From Planoprotostelium fungivorum (lineage: Eukaryota > Evosea > Variosea > Cavosteliida > Cavosteliaceae): DNA of 23,692 nt. Location: the NCBI GenBank assembly GCA_003024175.1, contig MDYQ01000273.1, positions 1 through 23,692 of the forward strand. Reading direction: 5' to 3'. Both the position numbers and the translations under genes were made by a program. Positions 6,502 through 22,533 of the stretch are shown in pieces; the first letter of the stretch is position 1; each line of letters starts with the position of its first letter. Under the pieces are notes generated by a model. The model was not told where the DNA came from and did not search any database. It worked only from the letters and a program-made list of their open reading frames with translations.

Positions 6502-8221
6502 TTATTGGTTCTCCTTGACAAAATTTCCGGGCAGAGGGAACTGCTTGGCGAAGGCTTCTACCTCATGTCGTAATGTCTCTACTTCCTTGTTGGCTCTCAC
6601 AGCTGGCTCGAAGTCGGCCATCATCTTTCCAACCTGATTCTCTCAGTCACTCCCCCTCCTCTCCCTCTCACCTTGCTCTGAATGTCCTTGGCGATCTCAA
6701 CACCCTTGTGCAACAGCTGAGCGATCTGAGCAAAGTGCTCTTCTGACAGACCTCTCGTGGTGAGAGCGGCCACTCCAATGCGAACACCTCCGGGTGCGAG
6801 TGCGGATGTATCACCTGGCACGGCGTTCTTGTTGACGGACATGCTGGCATACTCGTACAGCTGGATGACATCAGAAGAGAACGATAGAGAGGGACACACC
6901 TTCTCCAATTTGCTTCCGGTGAGGCCTTGGGGTCTGACGTCCCAGAGGACCAAGTGGTTGTCGGTACCTCCGGTGACCAACTTGTATCCCAGCTTGCTCA
7001 GTTCCTCAGCCAATCGCCTGGCGTTCTTCTGGATCTGGAAAGCGTATTCCTTGAACTCGGGTGTGTCAGCCTCACGCAGGGCAACGGCAACGGCAGCGAT
7101 GATGTGCTCGTGGGGTCCTCCCTGGCAGGAGGGGAAGACAGCAAAGTTGATGGGCTCCTCGATCTCGTAGTTTCCGATCTCCTTTCCGTTGACGGTCCTC
7201 TTTCCCTTTCGGTAGAAGATGAGTCCGGAGCGAGGACCTCTCAGGGTCTTGTGGGTGGTGGTGGTCACTACATCACACAACTCGAAGGGGCTCTTCAGAA
7301 CTTGAGCGGCCACCAGACCGGAGAAGTGAGCCATGTCACACATGAGGTAGGCTCCAGATCTGAATGCGTTAGGAGAGAGCAACGGTTGAATTGTCCTCAC
7401 TTGTCTGCGATGGTGCGGAGGCGAGCGTAGTCCCACTCTCTGGCGTAAGCAGAGGCACCACAGATGATCAGTTTGGGACGGAAGAGGGCAGCATTCTGCT
7501 CGAGACGATCGTAGTCGATGTAACCATCGAGACCGACCTGTCAGAGTCATTCCTCAATCCACCAGAGGATGTGTCACCTGGTAGGGCATGGACTCGAAGA
7601 AGATGGAAGTGGCAGAGATCTTCTTCTTATCGGTGGCATATCCATGAGTCAAACTGAGATCGATCAGCAACACAAAGAGCCAGGTATACGCACTGTCCTC
7701 CACTGGGCAGATCCAGACCCATGATGCGGTCGTGAGGCTTCAGGAGACCAGTGTATACGGCAAAGTTGGCAGGGCTTCCTAAGGTCGTTCAGTGAGTGTT
7801 GACCTAGTGCATGGATATACCGGAGTATGGCTGCACATTGACACCCCACAGAGTGGGGTCCAAGTGGAAGGTCTTCAAGGCACGGTCTCCACACAATCTT
7901 TCGATCTTGTCTACCACGTGGTTACCTCCATAGTATCTCTTGCCTGGTAAACCCTCAGCGTATTTGTTGGTCAAACACGATCCAGTAGCTTCCATCACAG
8001 CTCTTGATGTGAAGTTCTACATCACATTAGAATATGTGAGAAGAGATATGTTTACCTCTGAAGCAATCATCTCTAGACCCTCAAATTGACGTTGCTTCTC
8101 ATCCTCAATCAAGGCAGTGATTTCAGGATCAACCTCAGCCAGGGTTCGGTTACCCTCAAACTTGGCAAAGTATGTTGTCTGACATTGTCAGTTGTCTTCT
8201 TCATCATTGAGACCTCACCAT
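6502..8221 (-). CDS. SHMT: Serine hydroxymethyltransferase, cytosolic type
   Basis: This PLP enzyme converts serine and tetrahydrofolate to glycine and 5,10-methylene-THF. Nine coding exons, read leftward: 8221-8219 (ATG only), 8178-8056, 8016-7821, 7778-7694, 7653-7578, 7537-7401, 7359-6900, 6860-6672 and 6633-6502 (TAA). All phases close, giving 466 residues, the family's usual length. Diagnostic stretches are all intact: [85 protein letters not shown] (PLP lysine about Lys244) and APGGVRIG. There is no N-terminal extension, so no mitochondrial transit peptide. The start is the only ATG in the last open codon run after an upstream in-frame stop, and it is separated from the rest by a 40-nt intron. 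Introns are 38-42 nt. A function call with very little doubt. Confidence 0.97.
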
Positions 8222-8422: not shown

Positions 8423-9837
8423 TTATTCAAAGAGTCGAGGTCTGTTGTGTATAGCGTATTGGATACGATTGATTCCATAGGGGAGGTAGTCGAAGGTCAA
8501 TTGGGATATATGAGCTTGGACGAGTGCCCAGATACCCCAGAAGAAGTGACAGACTAAAGACATTCTCTGCACCTGTTCACCGTTAACAACGAGGGTGATG
8601 GCTCCTCCTCACATCAGTGTACCACTTCTCCAACTCCGATTCAGATGGATCACCTGAGCAGTTGAGAATCGATCGTATCATGTGAAACTCACGTCCATCC
8701 AGTCTCTTGAGGTATGACTTGAAGAATTCATACTGTTTCTCCTTCGATGGGTACTGCTCGTAGACCAACTCGAATCCACACCATTCACAGAAGTGATTCG
8801 CAATGTCGAACGTGTTGTAGTTGTATGCACCGTATTCATAATCGATGAAATAGATGTTCTCTGAATTGATGAGAAGTGATTCACAGTTGAATGAGATCTC
8901 ACTGTCGATGGGGTTATACACCACATTTCCAGCCAGGAGATCGTTGTGACAGAATCCAACACGGAGATCATCCTTCTCCAGCCTGTCCTTGAAGAAATGG
9001 ATCTTCCATCGTCAGCAATTGTAAGATGTCATCTGATGATCTTCCGATCGATAGTTCGATGGATGGGACAAGATTTCCTCCTACCTCTTCCAAGATTCGC
9101 GCCTTGCTCAAATTCGCCTTCTTCATCTGCTCGTTCTTCTCTTGGGTGGAGTATTCATCAGGCACTGGGTACGATCAGCACAGGGACATGAGAGGTTAGT
9201 ACCTAGAGAGAGATACTTCAAGAGCTTGTCCCAGATGGTCGGCCTCTTGTCCCCTTCTATGCCCTTGGAAGAATGCCACTCAGCCATTCTCTCAGCGATC
9301 TCTTTGTTGTGTACTCCATTAGCTAGAGCTGTACCTGGTCACGAAGAGACTATGACTAACTCACAAGTTGCGTCCAGCGTTTCTCCCTCATAGTATCCAT
9401 AGACGAAGCCGTTGTTGAATACGGCATGGATGGGTGGTGCGAGTGATATCTTCCCCAGCTCAGTAATGCACTAGATGTTGTTAATTCAGACGTTAACAGT
9501 AGGACTCACCCGCAGCTCTTCATCTCGATCGATCAGAACCTCTGTATTGCTTCCATATACACGCACCAGAACATGGTGGTCTTTAAATCCCACTCGATAC
9601 ACTAGTCTGCTAAGCCGATATGACAGCAGATGAACTCACATCGGTTAGTGATTCCGCCAGCAAGTTCTCTAACATGAATGTCATCGTCAGCTATATCCTT
9701 CCATTCTTCCATAGCGAGCTTTGCTATGTTTCTGAACATGGTTTAGAAAATGAGGCGAAAGATCTCTGAAAGACTCACAATGCATCTCTCTCTGGATCTT
9801 TTGTAACATCGATTGTGAGCTTGAGTCTTCGGTTCAT
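8423..9837 (-). CDS. Ethanolamine/choline kinase
   Basis: Catalyses the first step of the Kennedy pathway, phosphorylating ethanolamine or choline with ATP in the cytosol. Eight exons, read leftward: 9837-9779, 9731-9640, 9601-9510, 9470-9365, 9334-9203, 9164-9085, 9002-8613 and 8572-8423 (TAA). All phases agree, giving 366 residues. N-lobe: LAGGITNRLYRVGF and VLVRVYGSNTE (nucleotide loop). C-lobe: the Brenner phosphotransferase motif FCHNDLLAGNVVYN with catalytic Asp208, the Mg-binding IDYEYGAYNYNTFDIANHF with Asp241, and the C-terminal LVCHFFWGIWALVQA helix followed by FDYLPYG. The last exon is easy to miss because a stop lies 9 codons into the final 40-nt intron. The acidic IDYEYGAYNYN motif is common to ethanolamine and choline kinases, so substrate preference is not decided; length and N-terminus favour the ethanolamine kinase type. 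It starts 92 bp from the divergent MORN gene. Confidence 0.93.
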
Positions 9838-9929: not shown

Positions 9930-11249
9930 ATGGTGAGACATGCGACCACGATGAGCTAACCAAAGGAGTATGCAGGCTCATCCAAATCGGGATTACGACA
10001 TGGACAGGGTGAATATGCCTACCCTGGTGGATTATACAGGTATGCGGGAGAGTGGCAGGAAGGGAAGAAGCACGGCCGAGGTATCTTCCAAATGAAGGAT
10101 GGTACCACGTATGAAGGTGCGTTGCAGGTATTAGTTATGCATCCTGATGAGCGAAGGGAACTTTGTTCAAGGAGAGATCGAAGGCTACGGAGTCAAAACT
10201 TGGCCAAGTGGGAAGAAGTACGAAGGAGAATTTCTCGGTGGAGAATTCCACGGTCGTGGTCTGTTGACCTATTCCAATTCTACTCAGATGTGTCAAGGGA
10301 CGTGGAGGAACAACAAGTTACACGGTGTGTTCGTGTCTAATGAGTAAGCAACCAACAACGGGTAGGCGACGGAAGACGGTTGTACTCGGATGGATCTGTG
10401 TACGAAGGGCAATTCAATGATCACAAACCCCATGGATTAGGTTCATTTGAATATTCCAACGGATCCAATTACACTGGCTCCTTCATAGACGGAAAAAGGC
10501 AAGGAAGAGGAAAGATGATAGAGAATGCCTCTTTGTGGATTTATGATGGATCTTGGTCGGAAGATCAACGACAAGGTCTTGGTAAATACGAAGAACAGAA
10601 TGGTATACATTACCAGGGTTCGTGGGTGGATGATCAGCCCTCAAGTGAGTACACTCGCGATCGGAGCTTCATTCAATCACGGTAGATAAAGCGTCCTCCA
10701 TATCGACCTCATCGACCTCTATGAGTTTAGAGCCCCAAGAGATGTTCCCAACAATCACAGTCGAACTCCATAACAGTCTATCTCAAATGGTGTCAGAGGA
10801 ATCCGGCCGCCGATTAGGAGTGTCGGTGACTCCCAGCATATCGCACATTGGATCTCGCAGCACTCGTATGAGTGCCAACCGAAAGACGAGAGAAAGAAGC
10901 CCCCTCCCTCAAAGCTCTTCAAAAATCTCCCATAGTGCTGTGGGACTACCGAACGAATGGACCGATGCCAGCGTCGTATTGCCATCACCACAAACGCTCT
11001 CAATGGAAGTTTCAGTCGATTGTGGTAGAGCACTCATCTTGGGACCTCCATGCAGGTGATTGTCTTCGTACGTCTGGTGTCAAAATGACTGGATCTAGAG
11101 CGCCTTCGGAAGAGGGGGAATACAGAATCTTTATATCCGACGAGAGCGATAGTCCCACGTTTCGGAAACTGCCTACCATCACGATCCCACTCCATATTAC
11201 GAGCAATAAGAGAGGTATCCACAGCAGAGGGCAGAACAGCGGGCCGTAA
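9930..11249 (+). CDS. MORN-repeat protein
   Basis: Six exons join in phase: 9930-9932 (ATG only), 9966-10116, 10157-10324, 10366-10644, 10686-11055 and 11099-11249 (TAA), giving 373 residues. Residues about 8-185 are seven to eight MORN repeats of about 23 residues (GLRHGQGEYAYPGG, YAGEWQEGKKHGRG, YEGEFLGGEFHGRG, YEGQFNDHKPHGLG, YTGSFIDGKRQGRG, YDGSWSEDQRQGLG). MORN repeats form extended beta meanders that bind membranes or partner proteins, often at the cell cortex, cytokinetic sites or flagellar structures. Residues about 190-373 are Ser/Thr-rich with little order and end in a basic patch. There is no kinase, SET or other catalytic domain, so it is a scaffold-type MORN protein of unknown partner. 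The 43-nt intron at 11056-11098 links two frames that each look open alone, so an annotation that stops at 11059 would lose the last 50 residues. Confidence 0.85.
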
Positions 11250-11417: not shown

Positions 11418-14400
11418 ATGGTTGAGCAGGAATCACTGATCCTGAATATCTACGATAACTCCACCGATTTAAGACCACAAAATTCCATCGACGCACACAA
11501 TTCATGGAATCCCATGTCACGAATATTGAACAGCACAGAATTGACTGGGTAATTGAAATGATCGATCGATCTGATGATCTATTACGACTTACACAAATAC
11601 AGCTCCAATGGAACATCTTTGAAGAGACCCTACGATGGATCCACGATGACGAATAATGTAAATAGATTACCCAGCATTTCCACCGTAGCTTCTCCCCGGG
11701 CGAGCAGTGAAGGCATCCATTATCTTCCTCCAGGTAAAATGTTTGACTAAGTTATTTTCTGACACCAAGTTCAGAGAGTGACCAAGTAAAGAGGCAGAGG
11801 ATTGAGGCGCTGCAGATGAGCCAACATGCTGGGCCACCGAGTGGAGGTCACAATCACATGCAAGGAAGTGGAATGCTCACCCAACCCACTTCACCCAACG
11901 CAACGGTGATGAAATATCCTCTACGAATCAACAATAGTATGGTCTTGCATAGACCCGGTCAGATCATGTTCGCAGAGCCTGCATTCCACACGAGAAATGC
12001 ATTCTACCCCATCAACTACTGTCTTCTCAGACTATTCCAATGTGAGTCGACATCCACTGCGAAACTGAGGTGTCCAGCTCTGCAAGATCCCACACGTCAG
12101 GGATATTGGAGATGCGAAGTGTTGTACCATCCAGGCTGTCCCGTCTTTCGGATCACCGAGGACTCTGCACCGGCCAACTCCTTCTCATCCAGGGACATCG
12201 ACCAAGTGGTGGCCGATCTCAGACTCAGTGCGTCGAACGAATCTCCCTCCCTGACATCCATCAGCCTTCCAGAAGATCGGCTTGACCTTTCAGCCTCCAG
12301 GAGCTTGGAGTGGGTTGTACTTCTTTGGGCTGAGCAATCCTGTGGTCATCAGCATCTTGGAGACTCTACCTGGTGCCGATCGCTTTCCAGACTACAGCAG
12401 ATCAACGAGTGAGTGAATGGGAACTATACAACTGACCATCTCAGACGACAACATCTTGGCTTTACCACCTCCCCATCCCAGTCTATCCATCCCAGTCATA
12501 CCCAATCTACCCCTGCCATCAAATCCACAGAATGTGACCATGTCGAGCAATCAAGCCAATGTACAGAACATGCAGAACACACAGCAGAGGAAACCTCAAC
12601 AGAAGCAACCCACTCTCGTGACTTCACCGCAGCCGATGCCACCTCAGAGAAAGGGCAGACAACCTACGACACCAACGCAGCGCGCGAGTGTGGCCACAGT
12701 GAGCAATCCCATACCACCGGTGAGTCCATCCGCAAGCAGTCCGAATCAGTCGGGGACGCTGATGATACCGAAGCATGTGAGTGGATGGGATGAGAGAAAT
12801 GCTGATGAGTACAGATCAAAGAGCAGATCAAGATACACAGAGCAACCCCAGTGCTACCGAAGGACTACCCAGACCATATGATCTTTGTCGAGACGAAGAT
12901 CACTGATCGCATGTATCATGTCGCTGCTATCTATTCCCTCAAGGTACTTCAACTACATTCCTCTCTCATCATCTCTCCTATTCATCTCATCATCTCTCTT
13001 CTTCTCATCTCTCCTCTTCATTGATGTAAGTCTGATTGTTGGTAGGAATTATTAGCCTCTTCATTTCTGAACGACAATCCCCAAGTAGTTCAGAGGTTCT
13101 GGGAAGTACTGAAAAGGTGCTTCGTATTGTTGAGCATGGATGATGTAGCATTTCATCCAAAGAGAATCATGGACATGTTGGACACTGCCCTACGAAGGAT
13201 AGACGTGTGGTCCGAAACCCAGCTGGCCGAGATCAACAAACAGCGTCAGATCGCCAACTATGCGATCAACACTCGATCCCAAATGCAACGACAACAGACA
13301 CAGCCGATGCAGCAGCCACAACCAACACAGCAGCCACAGCCGATACAACAACCACAGCAGAACGGAAGGAGTCCAGCCATGGAGCCAACGCAGAGCAAAG
13401 GAAATGCAGGTGGAGCCATCGCATTGACCTCAGATGCCTTGTCCTTCTGTAAGAAGATGAAGGATGAATCGTCCATGGTGAGAGGAACGGAGGGACATCA
13501 ATGACACGATCAGAATGACTCCACTGTGGAGAGGATCACCCATCTAGTCCCTGATCAGCCCTTCCGTGGTCCCGAGAAGATCTTCTTCTTCGATTTAGAT
13601 GCAAAGTCCCTCGAGCACATTCAGATGGGTCACCTTCCCTCCTCTCCTTCTCCTGGGTATCTCTTTTCTCCCTCTTCATCTTCTCTCTTCCTACTCTTCA
13701 TCTTCTCTCTTCCTACTCTTCATCTCCTCTCTTCCTAATCGAGGACAGGGACAATGAACAGATCATGACAGTGTCATTGCAAATGTTCAATGCAAACAAC
13801 GTTCAATCCCACGGACAGAAACCTATTTATCTGATCAACGTCAATGGAATTGTCATCCCTCCCAAATACGTAAGGACTATGAGATGACCCTCCTGACCTG
13901 TGACAGCAATACAGAGAGGCTTACCACATCAACAAGTTCTGCAGGGTGGGGAGGAACTTTGTCAAGATCACGAATGCTCCACAGACGGTGAGAGGGGACG
14001 TCTGCTGTCACTGATGGACACAGACGGACCATCCAGTCTACATCATCTCTGTCATCTTGAGGCGCTACTTCCCCGTCAACCACCTCCTTCGCAGTGTCAT
14101 CAAGAGCCCCAAGCCCTCCACGACCTCCATCATCAATGCCAGTATGTATCTCCCTCGTACCTCTCTGACCTCTCCAGTCAAAGCCTCCTTCAACGTAGAC
14201 TCTGAGGTAGAGCAGATCTCTCTCCCTCTCTCTCTGCGATGCCCCATCACCCGAGATCGAATGATACTGGCAGGAAGGTCTACCCTCTGCAGGCACGTTC
14301 AGCCCTTCTGTCTGCTCTCCTTTCTGCGCTACTCTGTCAAGTGAGTCATCTCTGTGAACCATCCACTGAGTCGTTGGAGGATGCCGAGGAACAAATGGAT

Positions 14401-14727
14401 ATGTCCTGTTTGTCACACGGGGCTCCCGTTCAATACGCTGTACGTGGATGAATATGTACAAAATATACTCAATGGGTTGAAATCAAAGGGGAGAGAAGAG
14501 GTGGAGCAGGTCTCCGTAGATCGAGGTGAGAGGAAAGACTCTCTCTTCGACTGACGACAACAGAGGGTGTATGGGCCACACCGGAGAAGAAGACCGAAGA
14601 GGAGCGAGTGGTGGATCTCAGTATGTTTGGAGATGATATCGTGGATGTCATAGAGTCCACGTGGTTAGAGTACCAGCAGGACATTATGATCTCTGTCACA
14701 GAGGATCCCGTCCAGTCTCAACAATAA
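11418..14727 (+). CDS. FYR-domain + PINIT + SP-RING (PIAS/Siz-type) SUMO E3 ligase
   Basis: Fourteen exons: 11418-11548, 11603-11733, 11775-12227, 12265-12408, 12445-12776, 12815-12943, 13046-13477, 13514-13656, 13749-13869, 13907-13987, 14024-14141, 14178-14340, 14371-14525 and 14564-14727. Every junction keeps phase, giving 898 residues. Residues about 135-240 match FYRN (FHTRNAFYPINY, GYWRCEVLYHPGCPVFRI) and about 240-286 match FYRC (SGLYFFGLSNPVV...ETLPGADRFPDY), the F/Y-rich pair of chromatin proteins. A Pro/Gln-rich linker follows (about 290-400), then a helical segment and a second Gln-rich linker near 510-550. Residues about 585-738 resemble PINIT (YLINVNGIVIPPKY, REAYHINKFCRVGRNFVKI). 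The SP-RING follows: LRCPITRDRM, LCRHVQPFCLLSF, KWICPVC, with zinc ligands Cys776, His778, Cys804 and Cys807. The usual Cys after HxQ is Pro, with Cys two residues on. It is probably a nuclear SUMO ligase directed to chromatin. A tandem two-gene alternative is possible but no start/stop pair supports it. Confidence 0.85.
13657..13748 (+). repeat. 22-bp tandem repeat inside an intron of the SUMO ligase gene
   Basis: This 92-nt intron is more than twice the usual size because it contains three copies of a 22-bp pyrimidine unit (ctcttcatcttctctcttcc plus ta) at 13672-13737, the last with one change. The 102-nt intron at 12944-13045 has similar but irregular ctcatcatctctc repeats. The length excess in both introns is explained by repeat expansion. 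Confidence 0.85.
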
Positions 14728-14805: not shown

Positions 14806-16287
14806 ATGAGCGGATATCCGGTGAGTTGAACTAGAGAGGCAATTGACTCATCGATCACAGGGATACGGACAACCACAGGGTGACTCTTTTGATGATGTCT
14901 TCTCGTTTTTGATCGATATGCAGGATATGGCCAACCACCAGCAGGAGGATACAAAGGTGAGACAGATCATCCAGTCGCATATTCTATGAAGGAAAGAAGG
15001 GACTGTATGTGTGATGACGCCACATAGGGCCCGGAGCACCACCACCAGCAGGTGTGAATCCTTACGGAGGTGCGCCAGGAGGACAAGGTAATCCACCTCA
15101 ACAGGGACAATATGGTCAGCCTCAAGGTGATCTTCTACGCACAGACATCTGTGTTCGAGTATCTAACTCGATACCAAGGACAGTATGGTGGATCTCAAGG
15201 AGCACCTCAAGGACAAGGACAGTACGGTGGCCCACCAGGGTACGGACAAGGAGGCCCTCAGGGAGGTCAGTACGGCGCACCACAGGGAGGACCACAAGGA
15301 CAGTACGGCGGTCCTCAAGGTGCACCCCAGGGACAACATGGTGGACCACCAGGATATGGACAAGGAGCACCACAGGGAGGACCCCCAGGTCAGTACGGAG
15401 GACCACAGGGAGGACCCCCAGGTCAGTATGGAGGACCACAAGGAAGACCCCCAGGACAGTACGGAGGACCACAAGGAGGACCCCCAGGACAGTACGGAGG
15501 ACCACAAGGAGGACCACAGGGTGGACCACAGGGTGGACCTCCAGGACAGTACGGAGGACCACAAGGAGGCCAACCAGGAGGCGGACAGAGCAGTTACGGT
15601 AAACCGCAGGACCTAGGATGGGTGTGGCCCTATCTTGGTTGTTAGACTGACAATGAACAGGGAAGCCAATACTACAACCAGATCAATCAACAGCAGATGA
15701 ACAATCTCCAAGGCATGTTCCAGAATGCAGATAGAGATCGATCAGGAAAGATCTCTGTCATGGAACTTTCTCAAATGCCTCTCTTCAATCGAGCAATTGG
15801 TCTCCCAAATGCGAGGACCCTAATGAAGGTGTTTGACAAAGACAACAGTGGTCAGATTGGTGAGCCTTCATGACTACTCTCGCTGAATGGTTCACAGACT
15901 TCTTTGAATTTGCCACTCTCTATCAGTTTCTGACCAACATGATGAATGCATTCACCAGTGCCGATACGGATCGATCAGGAAGTTTGGATGCCAGGGAGAT
16001 CTGGTCCGCTGTCTCAGGGGCAGGCTTCAACGTGGGACTGCAGACCATACAGGAGATCTGTGCTGGCTTCAACATCAACGGCCCTCCTGGTGAGACTCTC
16101 TTCCTCTATTTTGCTAAACCCAACAGGAAGTGGCATTGGTGTCGACCAATTCATCTCCATCTGCGCTCGCTTGGCAGCGATCCGTTCTATCTTCGAGTGG
16201 AACGACCGTGCAAGGACGGGAAGGGTCACCTTCAACTATGAGCAGCTGGCTCAGATTATCTTCAACCAGACCAACACAAACAACTGA
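14806..16287 (+). CDS. Penta-EF-hand protein (peflin/ALG-2 type) with repetitive Gly-Gln-Pro head
   Basis: Eight exons: 14806-14820, 14861-14879, 14924-14956, 15028-15126, 15179-15621, 15661-15859, 15898-16089 and 16127-16287 (TGA), all in phase, giving 386 residues. Residues 1-200 are a low-complexity head of GQYGGPQGGPP-like repeats. Five EF-hands follow: EF1 DRDRSGKISVME (227-238), EF2 DKDNSGQIDFFE (262-273), EF3 DTDRSGSLDARE (292-303), a degenerate EF4 (NINGPPGSGIG) and EF5 (NDRARTGRVTFNYEQL), with the paired C-terminal helix used for dimerisation in the family. EF1-EF3 keep Asp at positions 1 and 3 and Glu at 12, so should bind calcium. Relatives are calcium-triggered adaptors in ER-Golgi transport and membrane repair. 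The head is about twice the length of human peflin's and has an X-type composition like annexin VII or synexin tails. Confidence 0.93.
15179..15597 (+). repeat. Coding minisatellite (Gly-Gln-Tyr-Pro-rich, 33-bp core unit)
   Basis: Exon 5 of the penta-EF-hand gene is largely a tandem array whose core unit is 33 bp (residues GGPPGQYGGPQ). Four near-identical successive copies lie at about 15374-15510, with shorter variants (GGPQ) after them. Codon choice within units is nearly the same, which indicates recent unit duplication rather than old convergence. The opposite strand and other frames are open by composition alone. Confidence 0.9.
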
Positions 16288-21181: not shown

Positions 21182-21479
21182 GTGAGTGATCCCCCTGTTA
21201 AGTGAATATTTGAGTATCCCAAGGACAGTAGTCATCGCACGTGCAATGAGATGGCATCCCATCTGAGAGGGGAAGGTGTATCCAAGAAGGATCCCAACAA
21301 CAATACGAAGGATATAGCATCAATGAAGGTGGATCGTGCGTGATTGTCTTCATCACATGATGTGATTAGTGATGTGATGTGACATATGTTGCCGTCATGT
21401 GATGAATGAGACCTGGCCACCTGATTGTGTAGGGAGCAAATGTATGCCATCATAGTAAAAGGGGGTATTATAGCCATCT
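21182..21479. other. Spacer between small gene and mobile-element relic
   Basis: About 300 bp without a supported gene. It contains a cluster of short repeats of tgatgtgat (21357-21405) and, at 21452-21473, a near-copy of the TATA/ggtattatag sequence found at 20837-20860. The base composition changes to AT-rich at its right end. Confidence 0.5.
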
Positions 21480-22533
21480 GTTTGTTGTGAAATGTCCAGA
21501 AGTGTTTCTTCAATATTTTTATCAACTCATCATGTATGTTGTTCAAATGATCTACGAAGTTTCTGCCTGCATCTTGTTCACAATATTCATATTCATGACT
21601 CTTTGCTTGATCAGCTAAGCATCCACCTGCAAGCATCACAACTCCTACAGGCTCATGACTATGAGTATATGTTGTCTTTTGGTCTTTTTCTCCACTCTGT
21701 TTTATTTTCTTTAGAATACATTCAAAGTCATAAGCCCAAAACAAAGGTCTGACAAGCTCTGTACCAAAAGTCTGCTTATATTGAGTTGTAGAACTCTGAA
21801 TGGGTTTATCTTTAAATACAAGGACTTTATTGCTGTTTTGATCTTTCTGATGTTTGGCCATATGCTTATGATATCTAGTGCTGTTACTATATGCACCTTC
21901 TTGCACTTGTCACAAATAACAGTTTCAGCATATACTACAAGTGTTCTCAGTAACATATAATGGTTTTTGACCTGATCCAGATGCAGACAGATTGGTGAGC
22001 TGTTGGATTCATATAATTTCAGACTGTTTGGTTGTCATCTAAAGTATAAACTGTAAGATCTAAATTGAGCGCTTGGCAGCTACTTGTACATAATCTGTAG
22101 TGATTTGATCACATTGGTCAAAATACTGATCTCTAAGAACTATAGCCTTTTCTCTCTGCTGTTTGCTATTTGACCGTTCTATTCCTTTACAAGATGATTC
22201 ATACAAAGCAATAGCAATGCACCTCCAGAAACAGAGATTATCCTCAAGATTTGGATTCTTCAAACATCTTTTATTTTTAAGCCCAGCATCTACTGTATAT
22301 CCTTTGCACCCACCTTGCTGTGATTTGGCCATCTTAGGTCTGAAAGCAATGAATTTATGTATTCTATGTTTTGTATCAGGTACAGAATCATCAGTAGTGA
22401 AGGAGTTATTTATCCACAATGCAATGGTATTATTCAAATCACTGATGTGTTTTGTCAAAGATATCTTGATGGCATGATCTGAGGGAAACAAGTATGTTTT
22501 GTTGATGGTTGATCTGTCCTCTATATTGACCAT
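21480..22533 (-). pseudogene. Protein-primed DNA polymerase B, N-terminal half, frameshifted and truncated
   Basis: Three reading frames on the minus strand carry consecutive pieces. At 22533-22060 there is a region with KNRCLKNPNLEDNLCFWRC-like text; the NPNLEDNLCFWRCIAIAL stretch is a recurring feature in the N-terminal region of Polinton-type polymerases. At about 22060-21930 there are two short frames with LHLDQVKNHYMLL and a CDKC zinc-ribbon half. At 21906-21480 there is the partner HKHMAKH, then FWAYDFECIL, the exonuclease I motif with its Asp-x-Glu. At least three frame changes (near 22065, 22010 and 21915) separate these pieces. The polymerase palm motifs (DxxSLYP, DTD) are absent: coding similarity ends near 21480 and host-like sequence follows. 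It is therefore non-functional. The order and direction are as expected for one ancestral gene read leftward. Confidence 0.6.

Follow-up and report, generated by a model that had tools for sequence, protein, structure and literature searches.

An FYR unit and an SP-RING in one predicted protein, a putative SUMO ligase, of the amoebozoan Planoprotostelium fungivorum

The window analysed here is a stretch of 23,692 nucleotides (contig C229) from the amoebozoan Planoprotostelium fungivorum (class Variosea). It encodes an 883-amino-acid protein in which an FYRN-FYRC unit, a helical domain, a PINIT-like region and an SP-RING follow one another, ahead of an acidic tail. The order of the domains and the SP-RING cysteines and histidine are read directly from the protein, and the FYR, helical and PINIT-like domains are conserved in two relatives. 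We consider it probable that this SP-RING family member is nuclear, has a single-copy gene and acts as a chromatin-docked SUMO ligase; worded more broadly, it would be a SUMO ligase or coregulator of ZMIZ/PIAS-like type that works in the nucleus and has the FYR as its docking module. By analogy with known proteins, we infer both its nuclear location and the targeting to chromatin that the FYR unit would supply.

Gene model and domain layout

The gene model was obtained by joining GT-AG sites in the genomic DNA by hand, with the reading frame kept. It contains 14 introns of 36-102 bases each, and its product is identical, letter for letter over the full length, to the database protein PROFUN_15123 (P0001), which is already public and labelled as a hypothetical or SP-RING-type domain protein. 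A sequence-only reading had proposed a single in-phase open frame with FYRN and FYRC ahead of an SP-RING, which the spliced model and Pfam confirm. Its count of 14 exons and 898 residues is corrected to 15 exons by the spliced model and to 883 amino acids by the model and PROFUN_15123. The features, given in window coordinates, are as follows.

11418..14727, plus strand: whole coding region, 15 exons, 883 aa; spliced model, identical to PROFUN_15123
11418-11548, 11603-11733, 11775-12041, 12078-12227, 12265-12408, plus strand: exons 1-5
12445-12776, 12815-12943, 13046-13477, 13514-13656, 13749-13869, plus strand: exons 6-10
13907-13987, 14024-14141, 14178-14340, 14380-14525, 14564-14727, plus strand: exons 11-15
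11789..11800, plus strand: KRQR basic cluster (aa 93-96); P0002 has KRQR at the aligned position, P0003 does not
11912..12124, plus strand: FYRN (aa 134-192), exons 3-4; Pfam E 9.8e-13, six-frame match at the same coordinates
12140..12398, plus strand: FYRC (aa 198-271), exons 4-5; Pfam E 2.6e-8, six-frame match at 12291-12398
12399..12770, plus strand: low-complexity N/Q/P/S-rich linker (aa 272-383), intron-split; identity to P0002 23% (FYR: 53%)
12771..13297, plus strand: helical domain (aa 384-512), exons 6-8; kept in both relatives, helices in the predicted model
13298..13456, plus strand: Q-rich linker (aa 513-565); 16-26% identity among relatives over aa 504-565
13457..14203, plus strand: PINIT-like region (aa 566-735), exons 8-13; identity 54% to P0002, 39% to P0003
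14228..14419, plus strand: SP-RING / zf-MIZ (aa 744-794), exons 13-14; Pfam E 3.9e-12; C748, C764, H766, C789, C792
14608..14652, plus strand: two SUMO-interacting-like patches from a pattern scan, VVDL (aa 845) and IVDVI (aa 855), in the acidic tail

The KRQR cluster is a possible nuclear localisation signal, judged from its sequence. The tail scan gave three overlapping SUMO-interacting-like matches; at least two occurred in 662 of 5000 shuffled tails, and the patches were dropped as not significant. The weak Pfam matches, among them DUF6826 (E 0.067), were treated as noise. AlphaFold modelled the full protein with a mean pLDDT of 33.7, and only residues from about 401 to 510 reach values of 61-78. 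Searched at E<=0.1 against its own genome (36.9 Mb, 471 contigs), the protein has no second copy: apart from its own locus (82-99%), it matches only a SAP-type gene on contig C46 (30% over residues 667-826) and a gene on contig C289 (36%).

The FYR unit is the most clearly recognised part of the N-terminal half. Pfam places FYRN (48 bits, cut-off 24) and FYRC (34.3 bits, cut-off 21) adjacent to one another, and in a search of PDB sequences they match TBRG1 (2wzo) with an E of 1.6e-14 over residues 142-270. When a three-sequence profile is used, the FYR unit matches TBRG1 at E 1.4e-18 and the MLL-type methyltransferase KMT2D at E 1.7e-8. These scores lie far above the noise level that, in the sequence-only reading, would have counted against an FYR domain. 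The protein shares its FYRN-FYRC unit with TBRG1, which, unlike P0001, to our knowledge has no SP-RING; it shares the unit with KMT2D as well, but shows no SET or PHD match in the Pfam scan. FYR domains are poorly understood protein-protein modules, and we know of no histone mark that they recognise. In MLL, FYRN and FYRC keep the two halves of the protein joined (passages of PMC6529847), and for JMJ16, binding of its FYR to the MMD domain of MMD1 is described (passages of PMC10693458).

Elsewhere in the window, the matches are to pieces of ordinary genes, on the minus strand to SHMT (6621-7550), choline/ethanolamine kinase (8583-8924) and ribosomal protein L18 (16628-17032), and on the plus strand to MORN repeats (10380-10685). 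At 21232-22533, where the contig end is richer in AT, the minus strand has two frames (224 and 157 aa) with no Pfam match. At 15000-15600, a long Gly/Gln/Pro-rich repeat (GGPQGQYGGPQG) precedes a region with weak EF-hand matches.

Relatives and the unity of the protein

Protein database searches, in which 6230, 630 and 7260 candidates were scored, returned four proteins (P0001-P0004). P0002 (JGI) has 747 aa and P0003 (EukProt), by its name the open reading frame of a Trinity transcript, has 1051 aa. Both agree with P0001 in the order of their parts: the FYR unit, the helical domain, the PINIT-like region and then the beginning of the SP-RING. P0004 is a ZMIZ2 isoform and the sole profile-search match beyond P0001 and P0002 (E 9.4e-6). 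As the search needs shared exact words, the two relatives represent a lower bound; P0003 was missing from the third search, and the likely reason is a length outside the range of that query. A search for the same architecture elsewhere had been suggested by the sequence-only reading, and P0002 and P0003 supply it from FYR to the SP-RING start. The fused FYR/PINIT frame is likewise supported, as FYR and the PINIT-like region lie within one predicted protein in each relative.

Conservation is concentrated in the domains. Between P0001 and P0002, identity amounts to 53% in FYR, 39% in the helical domain, 54% in the PINIT-like region and 83% at the SP-RING start, against 16-23% in the N-terminus and linkers. 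The corresponding values for P0003 are 30%, 41%, 39% and 71%, with 15-28% elsewhere. Such conserved islands between diverged linkers are what selection acting on a single multi-domain protein would be expected to leave. By Pfam, P0002 has FYRN above the cut-off, with FYRC (14.2 bits, cut-off 21) and zf-MIZ (32.3 bits, cut-off 33.5) both below it, and P0003 has FYRN and FYRC above the cut-off and no zf-MIZ match. Neither relative shows a complete SP-RING, which among P0001-P0003 is seen only in the P. fungivorum protein. P0003 stops just past the first SP-RING cysteine. P0002 stops where intron 13 lies in the P. fungivorum gene, with YSIK followed by ten residues that differ from those of P0001; such an ending would fit read-through into an unspliced intron.

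These relatives bear on whether a wrong model has merged a neighbouring FYR gene with an SP-RING gene. The suspicion draws on the gene being known from a genomic model, in which low-complexity linkers and many introns part FYR from SP-RING. We hold such an artefact to be very improbable. P0002 unites FYR, the helical domain, the PINIT-like region and the SP-RING start, although its contig has at most 2335 bases; its 747 codons and stop occupy 2244 of these, so introns like those of P. fungivorum cannot separate its domains. In P0003, an apparent transcript product, FYR and the PINIT-like region likewise occur together. The two-gene artefact is disfavoured by the joined order that both relatives share.

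The SP-RING and the domains before it

The SP-RING scores 46.2 bits against the Pfam zf-MIZ model (cut-off 33.5). Together with the region that follows it, it matches SIZ2 (E 2.8e-15), SIZ1 (5.3e-13), PIAS2 (8e-12) and PIAS3 (9.7e-12) among PDB sequences. Residues C764, H766, C789 and C792, which we take to be the zinc-ligand positions of the SIZ1/PIAS SP-RING, are present and aligned to SIZ2. We infer SUMO E3 activity for P0001. The protein thus resembles the PIAS/SIZ SUMO E3 ligases in its SP-RING and downstream part, but differs from them in that no SAP is detected and an FYR unit and a helical domain stand in front. In the genome, SP-RING loci number three at E<=0.001, namely the present gene and those on C46 and C289.

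The sequence-only reading overlooked the helical domain that follows FYR and precedes the PINIT-like region. Over residues 384-503, this domain is 39-41% identical in all three pairs of P0001, P0002 and P0003. The best PDB fold match of its predicted structure is the ZMIZ1 TPR domain (5aiz, rank 1; Foldseek and VIA), and on this model the domain is probably TPR-like. By sequence, its similarity to the ZMIZ1 TPR is not significant: the score was reached by 336 (P0001), 12 (P0002) and 509 (P0003) of 1000 shuffles, and a profile of the domain found nothing below E 0.35 in the PDB. The fold match nevertheless points to ZMIZ-like proteins. These resemble P0001 in a helical domain, putatively of TPR type and by predicted fold only, followed by a disordered, proline-rich middle, a putative PINIT/GBD-like domain and an SP-RING, and ZMIZ2 is 29% identical to P0001 over residues 667-833. 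They differ in that the ZMIZ2 isoform P0004 has no FYR in the Pfam scan, and the ZMIZ GBD-like model PF25527 matches none of P0001-P0003 at E<=10. Drosophila Tonalli is presumably to be grouped with ZMIZ1 and ZMIZ2. Passages of PMC12170594 describe ZMIZ1 as having an N-terminal TPR that binds NOTCH1, followed by a disordered region, and as contacting SWI/SNF-type complexes.

The PINIT-like region is more difficult to assign. At E<=10, P0001 has no match to the Pfam PINIT model; searched against the PDB, a profile restricted to the region gave 0 chains. Across the whole genome, the same model found nothing, but controls were equally silent, so this is no evidence of absence. Pairwise comparison with the ZMIZ2 GBD-like domain gave scores reached by 3 (P0001), 0 (P0002) and 46 (P0003) of 1000 shuffles; with the PIAS3 PINIT domain, the numbers were 304, 122 and 1. 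An AlphaFold model of the PINIT-SP-RING piece has a mean pLDDT of 36. With pairwise support mixed, we designate residues 566-735 as PINIT-like, of uncertain subtype. The PINIT domain named in the sequence-only reading is therefore kept in part: some comparisons with ZMIZ2 and PIAS3 favour it, while the Pfam model is silent.

Putative function and ancestry

We postulate that the SP-RING would recruit the SUMO-loaded E2 (Ubc9), and that the PINIT-like domain would face the substrate and help to orient its lysine. The FYR unit and the helical domain may anchor the enzyme to its partners within chromatin or transcription complexes, and this docking would direct sumoylation to those complexes.

The same architecture could instead belong to a ZMIZ-like coregulator, a scaffold with little ligase activity in which the SP-RING is mainly a docking surface for proteins and the E2, and FYR brings one more partner. 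We regard this as a real but rather unlikely alternative. ZMIZ1 is described as a transcriptional coregulator in the title of a paper, so strong ligase activity of P0001 is not assured. The fold match to the ZMIZ1 TPR, the position of ZMIZ2 as the only further profile-search match, and the scores of the P0001 and P0002 PINIT-like regions against ZMIZ2 all agree with a scaffold of this kind. Against it stand the lack of a significant sequence match to the ZMIZ1 TPR, the unmatched GBD-like model and the weaker score of P0003 against ZMIZ2, and SIZ2 and SIZ1 also match the SP-RING strongly. Moreover, SUMO E3 activity is attributed to the SP-RING of ZMIZ1 as well (in passages of PMC12170594).

A separate proposal concerns ancestry and targeting and is compatible with a chromatin-docked SUMO ligase, the explanation we prefer. 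It holds that a PIAS/Siz ligase lost its SAP domain and gained FYR for access to chromatin, as the sequence-only reading had suggested when it gave FYR the role of SAP. P0001 indeed has no SAP match at E<=10, its SP-RING and downstream region match SIZ/PIAS, its closest match in the genome is the SAP-type gene on C46, and the P0003 region is well above shuffles in the PIAS3 PINIT comparison; P0001 and P0002 are not. The gene on C46 (C46:24500-30500, minus strand) has a SAP match at C46:27737-27820, 0.8 kb upstream of its SP-RING (C46:26762-26896) on the same strand, and is apparently the ordinary SIZ/PIAS-type gene of P. fungivorum. With such a gene still present, the FYR protein is an addition and not a substitute. 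Nor was a SAP found in P0004, the one ZMIZ2 isoform scanned, which together with the C46 gene makes replacement of SAP by FYR doubtful. P0001 moreover has its helical domain, a kind that we know of in no SAP-type ligase; since the fold match of this domain points to ZMIZ-like proteins and the ZMIZ2 isoform shows no SAP, FYR in the place of SAP is only one option. Overall, we judge the replacement unlikely.

The third SP-RING gene, on C289 (L019:2101-3950), has an N-terminus that resembles the ZMIZ1 TPR in BLASTP (E 1.4e-4 in a single comparison, 19% identity over 88 residues), with a score reached by 0 of 1000 shuffles; hhalign gives E 0.0071 and a probability of 5%, and Pfam finds nothing in this N-terminus. 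Based on this partial gene model, C289 may carry a separate ZMIZ-like gene in which no FYR was detected. If the likeness is true, the ZMIZ type of protein would predate the animals.

No description of an FYR-bearing SUMO ligase was found in the passages of open-licence PMC literature covered, in line with the sequence-only reading, which knew of no such E3. The principle of joining a chromatin module to an SP-RING ligase is already known, because a PHD finger is present in plant SIZ proteins: in SIZ1 it is needed for SUMO conjugation (passages of PMC10693458), and in a rice Siz/PIAS protein it binds methylated H3 (passages of PMC6814106). The plant proteins are thus likewise SP-RING SUMO ligases with a chromatin-protein module, but their PHD finger reads histone H3, whereas the FYR of P0001 is a protein-protein module. 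Of the new targeting logic that had been claimed, the FYR version is new, and the principle has this plant precedent in the sources cited. We raise tentatively, as a possibility below even likelihood, that FYR-TPR-PINIT-SP-RING proteins constitute a further class of SUMO ligase in P. fungivorum and the two relatives, in which FYR brings sumoylation to the partner complexes of MLL-type proteins or TBRG1. If true, the histone methylation machinery and SUMO would be linked in one polypeptide, and alongside the plant PHD-SIZ proteins this would show repeated gain of chromatin-protein modules by SP-RING ligases. The natural fusion of FYR to a SUMO-ligase core also hints at which kinds of partner FYR may bring together.

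A six-frame search of the genome gave further FYRN matches on C134, C452, C180, C126 and C287. Because FYRN occurs at these other loci and C452 holds an ARID-FYR frame, FYR appears paired with several partners in P. fungivorum. The C452 locus (L006:928-2145) is a single open frame of 405 aa with ARID (E 1e-19), FYRN and FYRC. Near the FYRN matches on C180 (L008) and C134 (L005) lie a PHD-like frame (21.2 bits, cut-off 24) and a Myb-like frame (22.1 bits, cut-off 24.4), respectively, which may or may not belong to the same genes. The FYRN matches at C126:17910-18128 and C287:18874-19092 have identical scores and may reflect recent duplication or alleles that were not collapsed.
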